A DNA stretch of 64,000 nt from positions 638,001 to 702,000 of the forward strand of contig NZ_CP017305.1 in the NCBI RefSeq assembly GCF_001747405.1, written 5' to 3'. Below are positions 5,833 through 55,185 of this stretch, piece by piece; the stretch's first letter is position 1; the number at the start of each line of letters is the position of its first letter. A model generated the notes under the pieces. The model worked only from the letters and a program-made list of their open reading frames with translations, ran no database searches and had not been told where the DNA came from. Source of the stretch: Chlorobaculum limnaeum (GTDB taxonomy: Bacteria; Bacteroidota; Chlorobiia; Chlorobiales; Chlorobiaceae). Made by a program: the position numbers and the translations under genes.

Positions 5833-6058
5833 GAGTGCCGTAAGCTCGGGCTAAAGTCTACTGTGCTGTTGTTTGTGTTCATTGACAAACTTATTGCTTG
5901 ATAATAAGTTGCTGCTTCTAAAAACGATGATTCAATAAAATAGCATAGGGCGTGTAGTTTTGAGAGTTAGGTGGTAGTTGAATATAAATGTCTTACATGA
6001 CAAAATGGGGAAGCCGAAAACCAAATAGAGTAGGCAGTAAAATTTAAATTTTACGGAA

Positions 6059-44747: not shown

Positions 44748-47120
44748 TCACTCCTCCCACTTCCAATCCCTCACTTCCGGCATATCCTCACCATACTTCG
44801 TGATATACTCCTTGTGCTCGATCAGGCGGTCGCGAACGTATTGTTTGATATACGCAGCTTGCGGCCTCAGGCTTTCCACGCGGTTGGCTACGTCGGCAAC
44901 GAGGTGGAAGCGGTCGAGGTCGTTGATTACCACCATGTCGAATGGCGTGGTCGTCGTGCCCTCTTCCTTGTAGCCGCGTACGTGCAGGTTCGGATGGTTC
45001 GTGCGGCGGTAGGTCAGCCGGTGGATCAGCCACGGGTAGCCGTGATAGGCGAAGATGATCGGCTTGTCGGTAGTGAAGAGGTCGTCGAAGTCGCGATCCG
45101 AAAGACCGTGCGGGTGCTCCTCCTTCGGTTGCAGTGTCATGAGATCGACGATGTTGACCACCCGTATCTTCAGCTCCGGCGCGAGCTTGTGCAGAATCTT
45201 CACGGCGGCCAGCGTTTCGAGTGTCGGCACGTCGCCCGCGCAGGCCATCACCACGTCCGGCTCGCCGCCCGCGTCATTAGACGCCCACTCCCAGATGCCG
45301 ATGCCGCTGGTGCAGTGCCGGACGGCGGCCTCCATGTCGAGCCACTGCCACGCAGGCTGCTTTCCCGCCACGATGACGTTGATGTAATTTCGCGAGCGCA
45401 GGCAGTGATCCGTGACCGAGAGCAGCGTGTTGGCGTCCGGCGGCAGATAGACGCGAATCACCTCGGACTTTTTGTTCACCACGTGGTCGATGAAGCCCGG
45501 ATCCTGATGCGAAAAGCCGTTGTGATCCTGCCGCCACACGTGCGACGTGAGGAAGTAGTTCAGCGAGGCGATGGGCCGTCGCCACGGAATTTCGCTGTCG
45601 GTCACTTTGAGCCACTTGGCGTGCTGGTTGAACATCGAGTCGATGATGTGAATGAACGCCTCGTAGCAGGAGAAGAAGCCGTGGCGACCGGTCAGCAAGT
45701 ACCCTTCGAGCCACCCCTGGCAGGTGTGCTCCGAGAGAATCTCCATCACGCGGCCATCGGGCGAGAGATGGTCGTCGGCGGGGATGGTGTTGGCCATCCA
45801 GGTGCGGTCGGTCTCCTCGAAGAGGTCGCCGAGGCGGTTCGATGCGGTCTCGTCCGGCCCGAAGACGCGGAAGTTGGCCGTCTTGTCGTTCATCTTCATG
45901 ATGTCGCGCAGAAACCGCGCCATCGGCTTCGGCGCTTCGGCCTCCACCGCGCCGGGCTTCGGCACGTCGAGCGCGTAGTCCCGGAAATCGGGCATCCGCA
46001 GCTCCTTGAGCAACAGGCCGCCGTTGGCGTATGGAATATCGCCCATGCGCTTTTTGCCCTTCGGCGCGAGCGCCTGCAACTCCGGCAACAGTACGCCGTC
46101 TGGCGTAAACAGCTCCTCGGCGCGGTAGCTCTTCAGCCACGTTTCGAGCAGCTCCATGTGCTCCGGATTGTCGCGCACCGTGCTGAAGGGCACCTGGTGT
46201 GAGCGCCAGTTTCCCTCGGCGGGCTTGCCGTCCACCACCTTCGGCCCCGTCCACCCCTTCGGCGAGCGGAAGACGATCATCGGCCACACCGGTCGTTCGG
46301 TCACGCCCTCGACCCGCGCCCGGCGCTGGATTTCGGCGATCTCGTCGAAGCAGCGATCCATCGTTTCGGCCATCGCCCGGTGCATCGTTTCGGGATCGTC
46401 GCCCTCGACGAAGTACGGCTTGTAGCCGTAGCCGGTCATGAGCTGCTCCAGCTCGTCGTGCGAAATACGCGCCAGAACGGTCGGGTTGGCGATCTTGTAG
46501 CCGTTCAGGTGCAGGATCGGCAGCACCGCTCCGTCGCGCTCCGGGTTCAGGAACTTGTTGCTGTGCCATGCCGTGGCGAGCGGGCCGGTCTCCGCCTCGC
46601 CGTCACCGATGACGCAGGCGGTGACGAGATCGGGATTGTCGAACACCGCGCCGTAAGCGTGCGACAATGCATAGCCAAGCTCGCCACCTTCGTGGATCGA
46701 TCCCGGCGTTTCGGGCGCGACGTGGCTCGGAATGCCGCCCGGAAACGAGAACTGCCGGAAAAGGCGCGTCATGCCCGCCTCGTCGAACGACACGTCGGGA
46801 TAGTACTCGCTGTACGTCCCCTCCATCCACACGTTGGCCACCAGCGCAGGCCCGCCATGCCCCGGCCCGGCGATATAGACGATATCGAGGTCGCGGTTGA
46901 GGATGATGCGGTTGAGATGCACGTAGAGGAAGTTGAGGCCGGGAGTGGTGCCCCAGTGGCCGAGCAGGCGGGGCTTGATATGCTCTTTGGAAAGCGGCTC
47001 TTTCAGGAGCGGATTGTCCATCAGGTAGATCTGACCGACGGAAAGATAGTTCGCCGCCCTCCAGTAAGCATTCATCAGTTCGAGTTCGCTTTCTGAAAGC
47101 GTGGTCGTCGTTTGATTCAT
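44748..47120 (-). CDS. xfp: Xylulose-5-phosphate/fructose-6-phosphate phosphoketolase
   Basis: This 790-residue thiamine diphosphate enzyme cleaves xylulose 5-phosphate (and fructose 6-phosphate) with phosphate to acetyl phosphate and an aldose phosphate. Family features include [20 protein letters not shown] (about residues 52-71), [17 protein letters not shown] and [20 protein letters not shown]. The acetate kinase gene lies upstream on the same strand, so acetyl phosphate could be turned into ATP and acetate. The length is normal. Confidence 0.93.
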
Positions 47121-47220
47121 CGGTTATGTTGATTTGAGAGTTTTTTTATGTCTGGTCCCGGAGTTCATCCGGAACTCTGTTTTCCGATCTTGCAATCAAT
47201 AGCCGCACATTAAACGAAAA

Positions 47221-47244
47221 GCGGTACCAGCGAACCGGTACCGC
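47221..47244 (-). terminator. Hairpin between ackA and xfp
   Basis: GCGGTACC (47221-47228) pairs with GGTACCGC (47237-47244) and is followed on the minus strand by TTTTCG. It sits after the ackA stop and may reduce read-through into xfp. Confidence 0.65.
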
Positions 47245-47297
47245 CCTCTTTTCGTCATTCAATGCCAAACCGGTAACCACACCATATCGGCATCACA

Positions 47298-48485
47298 CTA
47301 ACCACCTTCGAGCACACGTCTTGTCTCTCTGACAATCGTCACCTCTTCGTTGGTCTCAATAACTTTGACGACAACCGGGCTGGTATCTGTCGAAATAATT
47401 CCGGAATGATTCAGATTCTTTTCATGATCGAGCCGGACACCAAGAAATTCGAGGCCCGCAAAGATGCGTTCGCGAATCTCAGGAGAATAGAGTCCGATGC
47501 CGCCAGTGAAGACGATCATGTCGAGGCCACCGAGCACCGCAGTGAGCGCGCCAATGTGCTTGCGGGCGCTGTAGCAGAAAAGCTCCACGGCCAGCCGCGC
47601 CTGTTCGTTCTTCGCTTCTGCGTCGAGAAGGTCACGCATGTCGTCGCTCAGGCCGGAGACGCCGAAGAGGCCGGACTTTTTGTTCACCATGTCCCGTAAT
47701 CCGGTGGAGTCGAGATGGCCCTCTTGCAACAGGAAAAGCACCACGCCCGGATCGAGGTCGCCCGTGCGCGTGCTCATCACGAGGCCGCCCGCGGGCGAGA
47801 AGCCCATCGTCGTCTCGATGCTCCGCCCGTCGAGCACCGCCGCCATGCTCGCCCCATGGCCGAGATGCGCGAGAATCAGGCGCCCCTTCCGGGCAAGCGG
47901 ATCGCCCTCGGCCTGAAGCTGGCTGAGGATGTACTGATAGGAAAGTCCGTGAAAGCCGTAGCGCTGCACCCCCTGGCGGCGATACTCCTCCGGGATGGGG
48001 CAGAGCTTTGCCAGCGGCGGCATGGTGTTGTGGAAGGCGGTGTCGAAGCAGGCCACCTGAAAGGCGCCCGGCAGCTCGGTGGCGGCGTAGCGGATGGCGT
48101 TCAGCGCCTGTGGAAGATGTTCTGGCGCATAGGAAACAAGTTCGGCAATGGAGTCGAGCAGTTCTGGCGTTACCTTTTCGGATGCGGTGTGTCGGGGCCC
48201 GCCATGCACTACCCGGTGGCCGACCGCATCCGGTATTCCGGGGCCATGCTTCTTGAGCCACGAAAACACGTGGCTGCACGCCGCCGGATGATCGGGCGCA
48301 TCGACCCGCTCGCAATCGATGTACCGCCCCTCGGGATCGACCACCGAAAAGCGCCCGTCCTTCAGCCCTATGCGGGTCAGCGAACCGGAAAAAAGCAACT
48401 CCTCCCTCTCCCCACTCTCGTACAGCGAAAACTTGATACTCGACGAACCGGTATTGACGGCAAGAATCGTAATCACAGGCTTCAT
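47298..48485 (-). CDS. ackA: Acetate kinase
   Basis: This 395-residue ASKHA kinase interconverts acetyl phosphate plus ADP with acetate plus ATP. Hallmarks are LAVNTGSSSIKFSLY near the N-terminus, GHRVVHGG, FDTAFHNTMPP and HLGHGASMAAVLDG. The start MKPVITILAVNTGSS at 48485 aligns with the family; an ATG 14 codons upstream adds an unlikely leader. No phosphotransacetylase gene lies nearby, but xfp supplies acetyl phosphate directly. Confidence 0.93.
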   Translation of the reverse strand: MKPVITILAVNTGSSSIKFSLYESGEREELLFSGSLTRIGLKDGRFSVVDPEGRYIDCERVDAPDHPAACSHVFSWLKKHGPGIPDAVGHRVVHGGPRHTASEKVTPELLDSIAELVSYAPEHLPQALNAIRYAATELPGAFQVACFDTAFHNTMPPLAKLCPIPEEYRRQGVQRYGFHGLSYQYILSQLQAEGDPLARKGRLILAHLGHGASMAAVLDGRSIETTMGFSPAGGLVMSTRTGDLDPGVVLFLLQEGHLDSTGLRDMVNKKSGLFGVSGLSDDMRDLLDAEAKNEQARLAVELFCYSARKHIGALTAVLGGLDMIVFTGGIGLYSPEIRERIFAGLEFLGVRLDHEKNLNHSGIISTDTSPVVVKVIETNEEVTIVRETRRVLEGG

Positions 48486-48710
48486 AACGCACCATCTCCC
48501 GGAAAATTGCTCTGCTGGACGGCACACAACGCCACTCGCCCCTCAAGTCACACAAAGATACAAGTCACTGACACCAACCCCGCCCGGCTGTCGTTACGTT
48601 CCTGAAAAATCGGAGAAGCACGAATTATCACTATTATTCGGCATCCTTCCGGTTAAAAACTATCCCGGATTTGTAACGGTACGAAACAGCCATGAGCGTT
48701 CGCCCCCGAA

Positions 48711-49457
48711 CTACTGATTCAGATACCCTTGCCTTTTCAGAATTGTTTTCGCTTCGACGCTTCTCAGGTAACTGAAAAATGATCTCGCGTCGGCGTTTGC
48801 GGCGCCGCCTGGGGTTAGCGCCATCGTGAAGGGCGTTCTGTCGTAGAGCGCGTGCGGCACGGTAAAGAGGATTTTCGCCTTTCTGGCAGTGAGTGCTTCG
48901 GTGAGGTGCACGAAGGCAGCATCGACCGCGCCGGTTTCGGCGTACATCAGGGACTGCGGCATGTCGCGCGTCATGACCAGCTTTCCGGCAAGCTGATGTT
49001 CGAGACCGGCGGATATGATCGCATCCATCGCCATTTCACCGGCGGGCGCGCTGTTCGGATTGCCGAGAGCGATTCTGCCGAGCTTCGTCAGGTCATTCAT
49101 CGACGAGACTTTCCGCACCGGAGCGCCGATCACCACGATTTCGTTCCAGGCAAAAGGAGTTATCGATTCCGGGGCGAGCAGCTTTCGCGCCTTGAGATAC
49201 TCCACCCATTTTGAATCCGCGGAGATGTAGACATCCGCCGGAGCGCCGTTCTCGATCTGCAACGCAAGCGCACCCGCAGCCGCGTAGTTTTTCGTGAAGG
49301 TCGCGCCGGGATGGGCTTTCGCGAAGTTTCCCGACAGCACGTCAAGCACCGGTTTCATGCCCGCTCCCGCCGACAGGCGGATTTCACCGGCAAAGGCCGG
49401 AGAGGTGGTTATGACGAGCAGAAGAGCGAAGAGCATGGTTTTAAAGCGTTTTTTCAT
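48711..49457 (-). CDS. modA: Molybdate-binding periplasmic protein
   Basis: This 248-residue ABC-transporter binding protein begins with a signal peptide (KTMLFALLLVITTSPAFA, then GEIRLSAGAG). Family features are the YAAAGALALQIENGAPADVY segment and later AKTILKRQG. It should bind molybdate or tungstate for the ModBC permease. The start MKKRFKTML at 49457 gives the proper signal peptide. modE lies just upstream on the same strand. modB and modC do not follow: acetate kinase is the next gene. Confidence 0.88.
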   Translation of the reverse strand: MKKRFKTMLFALLLVITTSPAFAGEIRLSAGAGMKPVLDVLSGNFAKAHPGATFTKNYAAAGALALQIENGAPADVYISADSKWVEYLKARKLLAPESITPFAWNEIVVIGAPVRKVSSMNDLTKLGRIALGNPNSAPAGEMAMDAIISAGLEHQLAGKLVMTRDMPQSLMYAETGAVDAAFVHLTEALTARKAKILFTVPHALYDRTPFTMALTPGGAANADARSFFSYLRSVEAKTILKRQGYLNQ

Positions 49458-49486
49458 GAGTGGTTGTGGTTTTCGTTGTGTTTTTG

Positions 49487-49500
49487 CCGTTATAGCGATG
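49487..49500. promoter_or_regulatory. Candidate ModE-type site upstream of modA
   Basis: CCGTTATAGCGATG lies about 30 bases upstream of the modA start. It shares the GTTATA core with GGTTATAACGG in front of the TonB receptor and cytochrome genes. ModE operators in other bacteria contain TATAACG/CGNTATA half-sites, so this is a plausible operator, though unproven. Confidence 0.4.
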
Positions 49501-49593: not shown

Positions 49594-50403
49594 TCAGTTC
49601 ACGCCAATGATTACGTCAGATGCTTTGAATATGGCGCAGACTTGCTGGCCCTCTTTGAGGTCGAGTTTGCTGGTGCTGGTTTTGGTGATGATGGCGGAAA
49701 TGCTGTTGCTGCCGCCGATTTCGATGTCGATTTCGCTGTTGACCTGGTCTTCGATCACACGTTGCACCGTGCCGCAGATGACGTTGCGGGCGCTCAGCTT
49801 TTTGCCTTGCAGGTCGCGGCCCACCATGACCGAACTCGACTTGACGATGGCGTAGGCGCTCATGCCCGTTTTCAGACCGAGGTTATCGACCGCGCCGTTA
49901 GTGATGGTCGAAGCGATCTCCTGGCCGCCGTTGAGCGTGATGATGATTTCGGCGTTGACCGCGCCTCGCGTGATTTCGGTGATGACGCCGGAGAAGGTGT
50001 TGCGCGCGCTGATGCGCATCGAAATCCTGCGCAGGAACTGGTAGAGGTTGCCGGTGTCGCCGAGCCGCTCTTCGAGATTTTCGAGGAACTTGCGGTGCTC
50101 CTCCTGCACGATGCGGTACTTTTCGATTACCTGCCGCCCCTCGCGGGTGAGCACGGTGCCGCCGCCGCCCTTGCCGCCGGTCATGCGGTCAACGAGCGGT
50201 TTGTCGGAGAGGTTGTTCATCATGTTCACCAGGTGCCAGGCGGTTTTGTAGCTGATGCCGACCGCTTTGGCCGCGCTGTTGATCGAACCGAGTTCGTCGA
50301 TCTTTTCAAGCAGGGCAATCCGGTCGCCCCCGAGAAAGCGGCTCTGTGATTTCTGGAACCAGATCGAACCTTCGATTCCGATGGGGTCTTTTGTTTTGCT
50401 CAC
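49594..50403 (-). CDS. modE: ModE molybdate-responsive regulator
   Basis: This 269-residue ModE has an N-terminal winged helix (ALLEKIDELGSINSAAKAVG, about residues 30-49). The glycine-rich MTGGKGGGG is typical of ModE. Two tandem Mop domains bind molybdate (about 130-195 and 202-268). The start codon is GTG at 50403. ModE with molybdate usually represses mod transport genes and can activate molybdoenzyme genes. It sits between the TonB receptor and modA in one strand run. Confidence 0.92.
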   Translation of the reverse strand: MSKTKDPIGIEGSIWFQKSQSRFLGGDRIALLEKIDELGSINSAAKAVGISYKTAWHLVNMMNNLSDKPLVDRMTGGKGGGGTVLTREGRQVIEKYRIVQEEHRKFLENLEERLGDTGNLYQFLRRISMRISARNTFSGVITEITRGAVNAEIIITLNGGQEIASTITNGAVDNLGLKTGMSAYAIVKSSSVMVGRDLQGKKLSARNVICGTVQRVIEDQVNSEIDIEIGGSNSISAIITKTSTSKLDLKEGQQVCAIFKASDVIIGVN

Positions 50404-50467: not shown

Positions 50468-50490
50468 CCCGGCGGTGGAGCGCCGCCGGG
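50468..50490 (-). terminator. GC-rich hairpin after TonB receptor gene
   Basis: CCCGGCGG (50468-50475) pairs with CCGCCGGG (50483-50490) and is followed on the minus strand by AT-rich sequence. It lies between the TonB receptor stop and the modE start. Confidence 0.55.
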
Positions 50491-50538: not shown

Positions 50539-52755
50539 TCAGTAGTGCACCGCGACCGAGGCGACCACCGTGAAGGGCGCGCCAGGCTGATAGGAGCTGT
50601 TCAGTGTTTTGTAGTCTGAGGTGCTGATCAGGCTGACGTATTTTTTGTCGAACAGGTTGATGAACGAGAGCGAACAGTCCACGTTCCGGAATCCGGCCAT
50701 CGCTGTGCTCCATGTCAGGTCGAGGTCAACGAGCGTCGCGCCATCGATCTTCTGCTGGTGCCGCACGTCGCCATAACGCGCTGATGAGTAACGGACGACC
50801 GGTGAAATGGTGAAGTCGCCGACGGTGTAGCTGACGATTCCTTTGGCCATGAACTCCGGCGCGTCGGGCACCTGGTTGCCTTCGATGGCAAGGATCGGGT
50901 TGCCGGGAGCATCCGAGCGAATATCCTGATCGAATGAGAAGCGGTTCCACGAGAACGAGCCGTAGCATTTCAGGGCGCTTGAGGGTTTGTACTCCGCTTC
51001 GAACTCAAAGCCGTATCCTTTCGCGTCGGCATTGTTTATCGGATAGGTGGCATCGAGATTCGGATCGTAGAGTACAGCCTGCTTGTTCTTGTGAGTGGCG
51101 TAATAGATGGTTGGCTCTATGCTCCAGTTGCGGCCGTTCATCTTCAGGCCAAGCTCGAGGTTCCGGGAAATTTCCATCTGCCGCGCATCCCAGAGCTGTT
51201 CGAAGGTTATGCCTTTCGGCTGGAAGCTCGTGCTGTATTGCGAGATGAAGTAGGGATAAATATCTACGTGAGTGACGTAGTTCTCCCCGTAGGCCAGGTG
51301 CACGGTGGTGTCGTCGCCGATCATGCGGGTGAGCCTCACGTCGGGGAAGAGGCGGCTGAAGCTCTTCGTCGATTCAGCGCTTTTGGCCGCGACGATGGCC
51401 GGATCGGTGGCGAGCGCATCGTCGTAACTGACGTCAACGATTCCGGTTGTGTCGTAAGTGAGAATCGAGGGCAGGGTGTAGTTCACATACTTCACGCCGC
51501 CCTCGAGCAGCCAGTCGCCGGTGCGGTACTTCGCCTCGATGAAGGGTTCGTGCAGTACGTGATCTGAGCCGTCTGACAGGATCGACCAGTTTTTGAACTG
51601 GAGCGCGCTGCCGTTGAGCGTGTAATTTTTCCACGAGGTCGGTGGTCCGGGGCGCTTCTGGGTGTGATAGAGATAGCCGAAATCGAGGTCGGCTCCGCCA
51701 AGTTTCGTGGTGTATTCGGCGAGGATTCCCTTGAGATCGTGGTCGATGTCCCAGCGACGAATCATGTTCTGGCTGTTCTGGGTGATCGTCTCCATGTAGT
51801 AGCCCTTGTCGCTCCAGTAGTAAGGCTTGATGTTGAGCTTCGAGTTGTCGCCGGTTTTCACTTCGAGGTTGGCCATCACCATCCAGTCCTCGAACTCGTT
51901 CTTGTTGTAGCCGTAGTAGTCGTATTTCGCCGGATCGTTGCCGTAATCGGTGTCGTACGCGCTGTCGATATCCTGGATTTCATCCCATTTCAGCGCCTTG
52001 TAGGGGTGGATGTTACCCTTGCTCCAGGTAACGAAGGTTTCGAGTTTCACGCTGTCGCTGAACTCCTCGATCATGCCGAACATCAGGTTGTTGCGGTTGC
52101 TCGATCCGTACCCTTTCCACTTTTCGGCGTAGCTTGTCGAGCCGGAGGCGAATGCCCTCAGGCCGCCGCCGAGATTGCCGGTGTCGATGCGCAGGTAGGT
52201 GCGGCTGAAGTCGTGGCTGCCGATGCTCTGCTTGAAGGTGACGCCGAACTTCTCCTCCGGTCGCCTGATCGTCATGTCTATTTTGCCGCCTACGTCGGCG
52301 ATGCCGAGGCCGATGTTGGCGGGCATGACGCCGCTGTACACCGCGATGTTCTCGAAGTTTTCGAGGTCGTAAATCGTCGCGCCGCCGCCCGGACGCCCGG
52401 TGACCGGCAGTCCCTCGACGTTGGCTGTGGTGCCGGGTACGCCGCCAGCGGTCGCCTCGACGCCACGAAAGCGGAATGCCTCGTGGTAGTTGACGGTGTC
52501 CGCCAGTCCGTAGGGATCGACGCTTTGCTGGCTGATGGAGGGCATCATGCCGATGACCTTGTACACCGACATCTGCGACGGGTTGAGCAGCGCCGACTCC
52601 TTGCCGGTGACGTTCTGCAGGAGGTCGCCTTTTTTGCCCGAGACGGTGATTTCGGGTGCTGTAAAGGTGCTGTTCGCCAGCAGGGCCTGGCTTTCCTCAG
52701 CCTTCGCCGTGGCGGATAGCAGCGCCAGAAGGGTGATGAGTGAAGTTTTTTTCAT
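50539..52755 (-). CDS. TonB-dependent outer-membrane receptor in mod/nif region
   Basis: This 738-residue TonB-dependent receptor has a signal peptide (MKKTSLITLLALLSATAKA), a TonB-box-like start (PEITVSGKK), and a plug domain with FRFRGVEAT and GLPVTGRPGGGATIYDLENF. A beta-barrel follows, ending VVASVAVHY with a terminal aromatic. It would import a ligand across the outer membrane. The gene lies upstream of modE and modA, so molybdate bound to a chelator is a likely ligand, though iron or other siderophores cannot be excluded. GGTTATAACGG lies about 30 bases upstream. Confidence 0.85.
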   Translation of the reverse strand: MKKTSLITLLALLSATAKAEESQALLANSTFTAPEITVSGKKGDLLQNVTGKESALLNPSQMSVYKVIGMMPSISQQSVDPYGLADTVNYHEAFRFRGVEATAGGVPGTTANVEGLPVTGRPGGGATIYDLENFENIAVYSGVMPANIGLGIADVGGKIDMTIRRPEEKFGVTFKQSIGSHDFSRTYLRIDTGNLGGGLRAFASGSTSYAEKWKGYGSSNRNNLMFGMIEEFSDSVKLETFVTWSKGNIHPYKALKWDEIQDIDSAYDTDYGNDPAKYDYYGYNKNEFEDWMVMANLEVKTGDNSKLNIKPYYWSDKGYYMETITQNSQNMIRRWDIDHDLKGILAEYTTKLGGADLDFGYLYHTQKRPGPPTSWKNYTLNGSALQFKNWSILSDGSDHVLHEPFIEAKYRTGDWLLEGGVKYVNYTLPSILTYDTTGIVDVSYDDALATDPAIVAAKSAESTKSFSRLFPDVRLTRMIGDDTTVHLAYGENYVTHVDIYPYFISQYSTSFQPKGITFEQLWDARQMEISRNLELGLKMNGRNWSIEPTIYYATHKNKQAVLYDPNLDATYPINNADAKGYGFEFEAEYKPSSALKCYGSFSWNRFSFDQDIRSDAPGNPILAIEGNQVPDAPEFMAKGIVSYTVGDFTISPVVRYSSARYGDVRHQQKIDGATLVDLDLTWSTAMAGFRNVDCSLSFINLFDKKYVSLISTSDYKTLNSSYQPGAPFTVVASVAVHY

Positions 52756-52783
52756 GCGTGTGTCGTGGTTGCTGTGACTTTCT

Positions 52784-52794
52784 GGTTATAACGG
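52784..52794. promoter_or_regulatory. GGTTATAACGG motif upstream of TonB receptor
   Basis: This 11-base motif with palindromic core GTTATAAC lies about 29 bases upstream of the receptor start and is identical to the one upstream of the cytochrome gene. It may be a ModE-type operator half-site or a shared -10 region. Confidence 0.4.
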
Positions 52795-52827
52795 TCGAAA
52801 AAATATCCCGGTGCTCTTCCGCTCTTC

Positions 52828-53226
52828 TTATTCAGGGCAGTCTGGTGGAGTAAATGCCGGGTCATACTGGTCCCACATCCATTCCGCCACCGTCCTGAGT
52901 TCTGTTGCGGTGAGTTTGACGGCTGGCATCAGCCCGAACCGGGAAATGGCCGGGGCGCGGAGCTTCGATTTGCCGGGTTCGGGGTTGGCTATGAATTCCA
53001 TGATATGGTGGACGCCAACCTCGCGGTCATCGAATACTTTATGGTAGAAGTGCGCGAGCCCGATGATCGGCGGGGCTTTTGCTGGCGGGGGCGTCATGGT
53101 GTGGCAGCTGCTGCAGTGTTGCCGATAGAGTTTCCGGCCCTTCGATGTGGACTCTGATGAGTGCGCAGCTTCAGGCGAGGCCGCAAGCAGTGCGCTTCCG
53201 AGAAGCAGTATCGTCAACGGTTTCAT
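52828..53226 (-). CDS. Small periplasmic cytochrome c
   Basis: This 132-residue protein has a signal peptide (LTILLLGSALLAASPEAAHS) and one haem c site, CSSCH, at about residues 39-43. A Met in the FGLMPAVKLT segment is the likely sixth ligand. It is a class I cytochrome c, probably an electron carrier or a haem donor near the outer membrane. The start MKPLTILLLG at 53226 is chosen because the longer frame has no signal peptide at its head. It precedes the TonB receptor gene and shares the same upstream motif. Confidence 0.85.
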   Translation of the reverse strand: MKPLTILLLGSALLAASPEAAHSSESTSKGRKLYRQHCSSCHTMTPPPAKAPPIIGLAHFYHKVFDDREVGVHHIMEFIANPEPGKSKLRAPAISRFGLMPAVKLTATELRTVAEWMWDQYDPAFTPPDCPE

Positions 53227-53249
53227 CTGTCTGGTCGTTTTGCATTTCA

Positions 53250-53260
53250 GGTTATAACGG
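53250..53260. promoter_or_regulatory. GGTTATAACGG motif upstream of cytochrome c
   Basis: Identical to the motif in front of the TonB receptor, here about 24 bases upstream of the cytochrome start. It is a possible shared operator or promoter element. Confidence 0.4.
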
Positions 53261-53418
53261 CGCGCAAAAAAAAGAGCCGAGCCCTTTATTCTCTTTTTGT
53301 GCAAGGCATTACGCTATGTACTAATTTTCATAACGCAATGCAATAAAATGGGGGAATGCCTTGCGTCTCCAGTTAACGCAAGGCGGCCTCCCCCGGCTTC
53401 CTGAAGGGAAGGAAGTTC

Positions 53419-53727
53419 TCAGTTGATTATGTGATCCTCGCAGGCTTCGCCCTCTTCGAGCGCGTCGAGGATTTCATCGACCTTCTCTTCGCTGTCGATC
53501 TCGCCATACCAGAAGTTTTCGGGATAGACGACCAGCACCGGCCCTTTTTCGCAGAGGTTCAGGCAGGCGGTGGCGGAAACGGCCACGTCGCTCATGCCAC
53601 GATCGGCAAGCTCGCTTTCGAGGTAGGGAATGAGGTTGAGCGACTCTTTCTTGTGGCACATGCCCTGGGGAGCACCCTGTGCCCTGAAGCTCGCGCAGAC
53701 GAAGATGTGATGTTTCGGTTTGTCCAT
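53419..53727 (-). CDS. Thioredoxin-like [2Fe-2S] ferredoxin
   Basis: This 102-residue protein has FVCASFRAQGAPQGMCHKK with two cysteines 12 residues apart, then CLNLCEKGPVLVVYPE. These are the four ligands of the thioredoxin-like [2Fe-2S] ferredoxins often found beside nif genes. It may donate electrons in nitrogen fixation or cofactor assembly. It follows nifB on the same strand after about 180 bases that include a hairpin. The C-terminus is acidic. Confidence 0.87.
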   Translation of the reverse strand: MDKPKHHIFVCASFRAQGAPQGMCHKKESLNLIPYLESELADRGMSDVAVSATACLNLCEKGPVLVVYPENFWYGEIDSEEKVDEILDALEEGEACEDHIIN

Positions 53728-53910: not shown

Positions 53911-55185
53911 TCAGTCGCACCCGTTGCCTGCGCCGCTGCAACCTGATTTGCAGGCGTGGATCTGGCTGCTTTTCATCAGATGTTTGAGATTCTGGCCGGT
54001 GAAGACTCCGTAGACCGCCTCTTCGATCACCCCTTCGAGCGACATGACGTCGATACCGCTGGCTTTGAGCACCGATTGCGGCGAGTCTCCGGCGCTGTTG
54101 ACCAGAACGGCGCGGCAGTCGGAGAGCTTCGAGGCGAGCGCTTCCCAGCGCGACTTGCCGCCGCCGGGAGGCGGAGCCGGGCGTGAATCAATCAGCGTGC
54201 AGCTCTGCTTCTCCTCGTCGAGCGCATAGACCAGGAACCTGTCTGCTTCGCCGAGGTGCTGGTTGATGAGCACCCCTTCGAGGCTGGCCACGGCGATATA
54301 GGGGCGGTGCTCGTCGGGATTTTTCGGCATCCTCGAGGCTTCGGCGAGCTTCTCCATCATCTCGTCGCTGTTGATCTCGCCGATGATGCCGACCGCATCG
54401 GCGCGGCAGCGGGCGCAGTGCTTCATCTGCGGCAGCAGCTTTCCGGCTTCGGCCTGAATCTCCATGACCATCAGCGGATCGGGTTCGGGAATGTTCTCGA
54501 ACACCGTCTCGGTGGTGTTGTAATAGGGCAGGCAGTTCAGAATGTCCGCGCCCATCGAGGCGACCTGGCGGGCCACTTCGACCACGTGCGTATCGTTGAC
54601 GCCGGGGATGATGATTGAGTTGACCTTGGCAGTCACGCCGAATCTCTTGAGCTTCTGCAGGGCGGCGAGCTGGTTTTCGAGCAGCAGGTCGGCGGCCTGG
54701 CGGTCGCGGTACATCTTCTTCTGGTAGCGCACCCAGGCGTAAATCTCCTGGCCGATCTCCGGATCGATGGCGTTGATCGTGAGCGTCACATGGCTCACCT
54801 GCAACTCGGCAAGTTCTTCGATATATGGCAGCACGTCGAGGCCGTTGGTGGCCACGCAGAGCAGCATTTCGGGATACTTCTCGCGAACGAGGCGCAAGGT
54901 CTCCATCGTCTCCTCCGGGTTGGCGAACGGGTCGCCCGGCCCTGCGATGCCCACCACCGAAATGTTCGGCGAGAGCTTCAGTGCGTTATCGAGGTAGAAG
55001 AGCGCCTGCTTCGGCGAGAGCACCTTGCTGGTGATGCCGGGGCGGTTCTCGTTCATGCAGTCGTATTTCCGGTTGCAGTAGTTGCACTGGATGTTGCATT
55101 TCGGCGCGACCGGCAGGTGTATTCTTCCGAAGGTGTGCCTCGACGAGTCGTTGAAACACGGATGGTTCTGGATGTTCAGTGTCAT
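53911..55185 (-). CDS. nifB: NifB, FeMo-cofactor precursor synthase, with NifX-like domain
   Basis: This 424-residue radical-SAM protein makes NifB-co, the iron-sulfur-carbide core of FeMo-cofactor. The SAM cluster ligands CX3CX2C are Cys30, Cys34 and Cys37, in APKCNIQCNYC. AGPGDPFANPEETMETL is another conserved segment. A NifX/NafY-like cofactor-carrying domain occupies about residues 290-410, beginning YIAVASLEGVLINQHLGEA. The end is Cys/Gly rich (CKSGCSGAGNGCD). It follows nifN and is probably the last of the nifH-led genes. Confidence 0.95.
   Translation of the reverse strand: MTLNIQNHPCFNDSSRHTFGRIHLPVAPKCNIQCNYCNRKYDCMNENRPGITSKVLSPKQALFYLDNALKLSPNISVVGIAGPGDPFANPEETMETLRLVREKYPEMLLCVATNGLDVLPYIEELAELQVSHVTLTINAIDPEIGQEIYAWVRYQKKMYRDRQAADLLLENQLAALQKLKRFGVTAKVNSIIIPGVNDTHVVEVARQVASMGADILNCLPYYNTTETVFENIPEPDPLMVMEIQAEAGKLLPQMKHCARCRADAVGIIGEINSDEMMEKLAEASRMPKNPDEHRPYIAVASLEGVLINQHLGEADRFLVYALDEEKQSCTLIDSRPAPPPGGGKSRWEALASKLSDCRAVLVNSAGDSPQSVLKASGIDVMSLEGVIEEAVYGVFTGQNLKHLMKSSQIHACKSGCSGAGNGCD

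Follow-up and report, generated by a model that had tools for sequence, protein, structure and literature searches.

The locus studied here lies in a 64,000-nucleotide stretch (the window) of the single-contig, 2.80-Mb genome of Chlorobaculum limnaeum, which we surveyed by pattern searches, protein searches and the reading of selected stretches. The genes on the minus strand are ordered nifD-nifK-nifE-nifN-nifB, followed by genes for a 2Fe-2S ferredoxin (fdx), a monohaem cytochrome c, a TonB-dependent receptor (TBDR), modE and modA. The first-pass annotation had placed the receptor, the cytochrome and the ferredoxin between nif and mod genes, and we confirmed that they form a single minus-strand row after nifB. 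All features described below are on this strand. The final gene of the nif block encodes a thioredoxin-like 2Fe-2S ferredoxin of the Shethna/NifB-linked type (53419..53727). On its 3' side is a hairpin with 9-bp arms GCCTTGCGT/ACGCAAGGC (53358..53384) that is conserved across aligned loci and probably marks where the nif transcript stops. Two predicted ModE boxes follow. Box 1 (CGTTATGAAAATTAGTACATAGCG, 53312..53335) carries 13 of 16 consensus letters and fits CGYTAT-N12-ATARCG exactly, and box 2 (CGTTATAACCTGAAATGCAAAACG, 53236..53259), 76 bp away from it, lies ahead of the probable start of the cytochrome gene (52828..53226). This gene, the first of the predicted ModE-boxed operon, encodes a periplasmic protein with a signal peptide, a CSSCH motif and a GLMP methionine. 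The receptor gene (50539..52755) is separated from modE (49594..50403) by an intergenic terminator-like hairpin (50468..50490). A further ModE-like box (49474..49497) matching 11 of 16 letters, whose orthologous boxes score 12-13, is located just 5' of the probable start of the last gene, modA2 (48711..49457), which encodes a divergent ModA.

Two gene starts were re-assigned, that of the cytochrome from 53304 to 53226 (MKPLTILLLG..., with signal peptide) and that of modA2 from 49565 to 49457 (MKKRF...), and with these corrections one ModE-like box stands directly before each gene. Genes for ModB and ModC are missing beside modA2, and a complete modABC is present at G000:C1:2020-2024 kb. A sigma-70 promoter scan of the locus, a type of scan that is uninformative in this phylum, found none, and an Rfam search gave neither a Moco RNA nor another element near the locus. 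Elsewhere in the window, a DUF805b RNA (RF02914) was found at 6004-6036 with 45.8 bits, above the gathering score, and a phosphoketolase (XFP) and acetate kinase pair occupies 44748-48527, directly 3' of modA2. NifB (53911-55185) is fused at its C terminus to a NifX-like domain (Nitro_FeMo-Co, PF02579).

Concerning the receptor, the primary structure of the 738-residue protein was compared with known families. TIGR01783 was matched with an E value of 1e-25, the score of 90.1 bits being below the curated cut-off of 223.5. A Pfam search with the window TBDR alone gave no match, and PF00593 was matched in 4 of 25 members of the TBDR family. The protein displays the features of a TonB-dependent transporter: an N-terminal signal and a TonB-box-like segment, EITVSG (by inspection), a plug and a β-barrel, with the plug stretch highly conserved among 25 orthologues. 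In an AlphaFold model the barrel was well modelled and the plug was of low confidence, and a Foldseek search with this model returned TonB-dependent transporters with E values of 1e-22 to 1e-17. The nearest families were FoxA/FhuA by profile and Fiu/FoxA/FecA by fold. The receptor shares with FoxA, FhuA, Fiu and FecA the TonB-box-like segment, the plug and barrel and a weak similarity in sequence and fold, but differs from them in its sub-cut-off score, in boxes of the ModE rather than the Fur type and in its pairing with modA/modB. OprC, a copper transporter among the best fold matches, is likewise a TonB-dependent transporter for a metal other than iron, although the metal differs and the identity is only 14-16%. 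TBDR is the sole copy in its genome, which harbours two TonB genes. We consider it a TonB-dependent transporter with a probably new class of substrate.

The regulator encoded next to the receptor is a full-length, molybdate-sensing ModE. Its helix-turn-helix region (ModE_repress) and two Mop/TOBE domains score above the cut-offs, as does the protein against TIGR00637 and TIGR00638. The site consensus of E. coli ModE is ATCGNTATATA-N6-TATATANCGAT (PMC545781). We scored candidate boxes by the 16 fixed inner letters of this consensus and counted those with a score of at least 12. The exact pattern CGYTAT-N12-ATARCG occurs only three times in the 2.80-Mb genome, before genes for a molbindin and a PhsA-like molybdopterin oxidoreductase (the latter at L065:5131-8213) and before the cytochrome-TBDR operon. 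Among the sites with one mismatch are two in front of the complete modABC and a single one in front of modA2. The best Fur-like box at the locus had 12 of 19 consensus matches, no better than background.

Orthologues of TBDR, with about 55-86% identity, are present in 32 of the 98 genomes of the class, counting that of the window. We examined up to 20 kb around each of 29 orthologues, which together with the window gave 30 loci. In 29 of these, the window included, modE or modA/modB lies within 3 kb of TBDR, an arrangement that is not due to chance. The order in Chlorobaculum is nif-fdx-(cytochrome)-TBDR-modE-modA2. In Chlorobium it is nif-fdx-TBDR-modA-modB-modE-moaA or a shorter form near nif, and TBDR-modA-modB, with or without a second TBDR and a cytochrome, away from nif. 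The distance from the TBDR stop to the modA start is 90-109 bp in 12 loci, suggesting a single TBDR-modA-modB operon.

The predicted ModE boxes accompany this arrangement. We counted 38 boxes in the 9.5 kb upstream of TBDR or the cytochrome, distributed over 25 of the 30 loci and usually as a tandem pair, whereas shuffled sequences gave a mean of 0.37 and a maximum of 3, and the remaining sequence of these loci would predict 0.43. The five loci lacking a box with a score of at least 12 were L031, with two boxes scoring 11, and L048, L052, L055 and L056, each with two boxes whose spacer is one base shorter (a 23-nt rather than a 24-nt span). These 23-nt tandem palindromes of four Chlorobium-family loci are found at L048:8358/8485, L052:10357/10485, L055:14109/14237 and L056:7478/7603. 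An alignment of 11 promoters from the genus Chlorobaculum revealed the conserved hairpin 3' of fdx followed by two boxes. With a box in its promoter that is conserved among orthologues, TBDR is a predicted member of the ModE regulon. A full-length ModE is encoded in 31 of the 32 genomes with TBDR, and the 11 other members of the class outside the window's family, G086 excepted, have neither protein. About 50 genomes have ModE without TBDR, indicating that the receptor is not essential.

In genomes without TBDR the order is fdx-(box)-modE, and in several of them one box precedes modE itself, suggesting that modE autoregulation was the original role of the site or is a second one. One may therefore ask whether the boxes serve modE alone, with TBDR a mere passenger between fdx and modE that has no function related to Mo. 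The general conservation of synteny in the nif region would fit such an explanation, but where TBDR is found away from nif and modE (L048, L052-L056, L059) it retains both the boxes and modA-modB, and in the window two boxes precede cytochrome-TBDR and the terminator-like hairpin stands between TBDR and modE. We thus regard the passenger explanation as very improbable. Synteny with nif as the sole explanation was rejected, given the TBDR loci away from nif.

The first-pass annotation had suggested a search for the trio of receptor, cytochrome and ferredoxin in other diazotrophs. The receptor was recovered with mod genes in 29 of 30 loci, the cytochrome accompanied it in a minority only, and the ferredoxin stayed with nif. 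The ferredoxin scored 92.1 against NF041612 (E=3e-26; cut-off 150) and 62.5 against NF041613 (cut-off 195); these scores are below the thresholds for membership, but kinship to nitrogenase-linked 2Fe-2S ferredoxins is clear. As fdx remains with nifB where TBDR is absent and does not accompany a relocated TBDR, it belongs to the nif block, and the proposal that it is part of the uptake system had to be abandoned.

The cytochrome open reading frame (52828-53304) contains one CSSCH haem motif and scored 22.2 against PF00034 (cut-off 21.3) and just below the cut-off against PF13442. With its CXXCH motif, signal peptide and Pfam score, the protein is a class I c-type cytochrome. It adjoins TBDR in only five loci (the window, L036, L038, L039 and L040), and a role as an obligate component was ruled out by its absence beside TBDR in most relatives. 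The same subfamily is found with a second, BtuB/CirA-like TBDR in several genomes, often with ModE boxes (L040, L052, L055, L056, L104-L106 and L110, and L048, where the pair lies within the same boxed run), and lone copies in L102 and L103 have a ModE box at their start. In the window's genome, another TBDR-cytochrome pair at 860-863 kb has no ModE box and is followed by a further TBDR and a flavodoxin, suggesting that the pairing of TBDR and cytochrome is general and has been put to use for Mo in some operons. This unboxed TBDR-cytochrome c-TBDR-flavodoxin run (L120:5579-14799; G000:C1:860-870 kb), with TonB-ExbD-like genes further on, is perhaps an iron-limitation set with the same family of cytochrome.

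It is quite conceivable, if somewhat short of an even chance, that the cytochrome of the window is a redox protein of photosynthesis or sulfur metabolism that came to be in the operon by accident, taking into account its absence beside TBDR in most relatives and the abundance of monohaem cytochromes of this kind in the group. On the other hand, the subfamily recurs with TBDRs, with that of the window type at five loci and with the second TBDR in many, and several copies carry ModE boxes, including that of G086 (L110) and the lone copies in L102 and L103. The natural guess for its function is that it carries out a redox step on the complex that is imported, and the reducing role put forward in the first-pass annotation is likewise a guess. 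The suggestion that the cytochrome is a partner of TBDR consequently stands in part: it is ModE-boxed in several lineages, but it is dispensable and also pairs with a receptor that is apparently unrelated to Mo.

We then considered the ModA proteins paired with the receptor. The window ModA2 scored 151 bits against TIGR01256 (cut-off 62.5) and is thus a member of the family. Nine ModA2 proteins and thirteen ModA-like proteins from Chlorobium, all linked to TBDR, were aligned with E. coli ModA, and alignments with PDB structures were also made. S12, S39 and Y170 are the side-chain molybdate ligands in the structure of E. coli ModA. The corresponding residues are Gly, Ala and His in the window ModA2 and Gly, Met and Asn in the Chlorobium proteins, so that the canonical ligand set is absent from both. 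Overall, S12 was replaced by Gly and Y170 by His or Asn in all 22 TBDR-linked proteins, and S39 by Ala or Met in 21 of the 22. By comparison, five ModA1-type proteins of the same group, which are linked to modABC, retain all three residues. In a phylogenetic tree ModA2 is placed near ModA1, and the Chlorobium type forms a separate, distant branch, which points to changes of the ligands in two lineages of ModA, both paired with this TBDR. A genome without TBDR (L123) also harbours a ModA2 with the S12-to-Gly and Y170-to-His changes. The Azotobacter-type ModA has a somewhat different ligand set. Taken together, the best reading of the alignments is that the ModA proteins paired with TBDR bind another species, either instead of free molybdate or alongside it. 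The loss of ligand side chains likewise raises the possibility that the imported species is not free molybdate.

The altered ligand residues would also fit the import by TBDR of a different oxyanion or thio-anion, such as tungstate or vanadate, that ModE senses as Mo. Regulators of the ModE type and binding proteins of the ModA type can bind tungstate too. The regulon in the window's genome, however, consists of Mo functions (nif neighbours, molbindin and a molybdopterin enzyme), and we judge an anion other than Mo to be the least probable of the explanations considered.

An alternative that deserves more attention is that TBDR is an ordinary receptor for a ferric siderophore or another metal chelate, induced under Mo limitation through the raised demand for iron or nutrients that accompanies diazotrophy or Mo stress. 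Its closest family likeness, by TIGR01783, profile and fold, is to siderophore receptors. Homologues with 45-47% identity occur in Deltaproteobacteria that are sulfate-reducing or related (L091, L092, L093 and L094), with neither mod neighbours nor a ModE box of this kind. Directly downstream of the homologue is another TBDR-like gene in L092 and a TonB-like gene in L094. In Azotobacter, siderophore-type TBDRs are produced under Mo depletion under the control of VnfA1 (PMC9542535), and organic Mo complexes are taken up with Mo-binding metallophores (PMC3440940). Nevertheless, modA-modB is found in the same run of genes as TBDR in the Chlorobium loci, a siderophore-type ABC transporter was not seen beside TBDR within the window, and no Fur-like box was outstanding. 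A siderophore receptor therefore seems unlikely to us, while being the more plausible of the alternatives concerning the receptor's substrate.

These comparisons raise the possibility of TonB-energized uptake of Mo across the outer membrane, as the first-pass annotation had proposed. The proposal gained strong support, at the level of sequence, from the ModE boxes in nearly all orthologues and the putative TBDR-modA-modB operons away from nif, and it is very probable that TBDR serves specifically to import Mo in one form or another. We consider it likely that the cytochrome-TBDR operon is controlled by ModE, and that TonB drives the import of a scarce Mo species that is handed over to a divergent ModA. 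At high cytoplasmic molybdate, ModE-molybdate bound to the two tandem boxes would repress the operon, and the receptor would be produced when Mo is scarce. Powered by TonB-ExbBD, TBDR would carry the Mo species over the outer membrane. The divergent ModA (ModA2, or in Chlorobium the product of the modA-modB genes immediately after TBDR) would take it up in the periplasm and pass it on toward nitrogenase and Mo-enzymes. Energized import makes sense if the Mo species is so rare or so large that porins would not suffice. A supply of Mo specifically to nitrogenase is only proposed, as ModE is predicted to control a molybdopterin enzyme as well and TBDR persists without nif neighbours.

In terms of the substrate, the notion that Mo enters as a chelate or another form distinct from molybdate gained indirect backing from the ligand changes in the ModA proteins paired with TBDR. 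The substrate may be larger or softer than free molybdate, for example an (oxo)thiomolybdate or a Mo chelate, and a thiomolybdate or chelate is probably what is imported. Green sulfur bacteria inhabit sulfidic waters. In such water molybdate is converted to thiomolybdates, which react with particles and whose bioavailability is almost unknown (PMC3440940; PMC3528336), and we favour these compounds or a chelate on this basis. Where present, the cytochrome may alter the redox state of the Mo complex. The full scheme, in which a ModE-repressed TBDR, a cytochrome converting the complex and ModA proteins with ligands altered for the new species in two separate lineages make up a TonB route for non-molybdate Mo that feeds nitrogenase in sulfidic water, is a tentative one, and we hold it to be possible rather than probable.

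Known systems share parts of this scheme. The modABC operons under ModE in E. coli, Azotobacter (modEABC) and Geobacter have the same full-length ModE, the 24-nt palindromic box, modA/modB and control of Mo import; here, in contrast, the box precedes genes for a TBDR and cytochrome c, and the canonical side-chain ligands are gone from the ModA that goes with them. Azotobacter vinelandii resembles the present case as a diazotroph with TBDRs produced on Mo depletion and uptake of Mo as a complex (PMC9542535, PMC3440940), but in its Mo/V acquisition VnfA1 takes the place of the ModE boxes, and its receptors are encoded in operons with ABC components. The literature searched revealed no ModE-boxed TBDR in a modA-modB operon and nothing direct on TBDRs for Mo; an earlier prediction is possible in a 2003 paper that reportedly treated ModE elements in green sulfur bacteria. 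Very little is known of thiomolybdate bioavailability, and 'yet-unknown mechanisms' have been invoked for Mo acquisition by diazotrophs in sulfidic water (PMC3440940). A TBDR under predicted ModE control in cultivated green sulfur bacteria provides a named gene with which to probe this process. Mo would join the metals with dedicated TonB transporters, with a bearing on the limitation of nitrogen fixation by Mo in anoxic waters, past and present.

We also noticed that in three genomes of the same genus the molbindin gene faces a ModE-boxed cluster (L104:2666-14740, L100:3836-9990 and L121:1888-13700). In L104, the only one in which the cluster was fully annotated, it comprises a tetrapyrrole methylase-like gene, another TBDR, a FecCD permease, an ATPase, periplasmic binding proteins and a CobW GTPase, and ends with a ModE box followed by a second TBDR and a cytochrome. 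This cluster may represent a second Mo-linked uptake system, MolABC-like or dependent on a metallophore.
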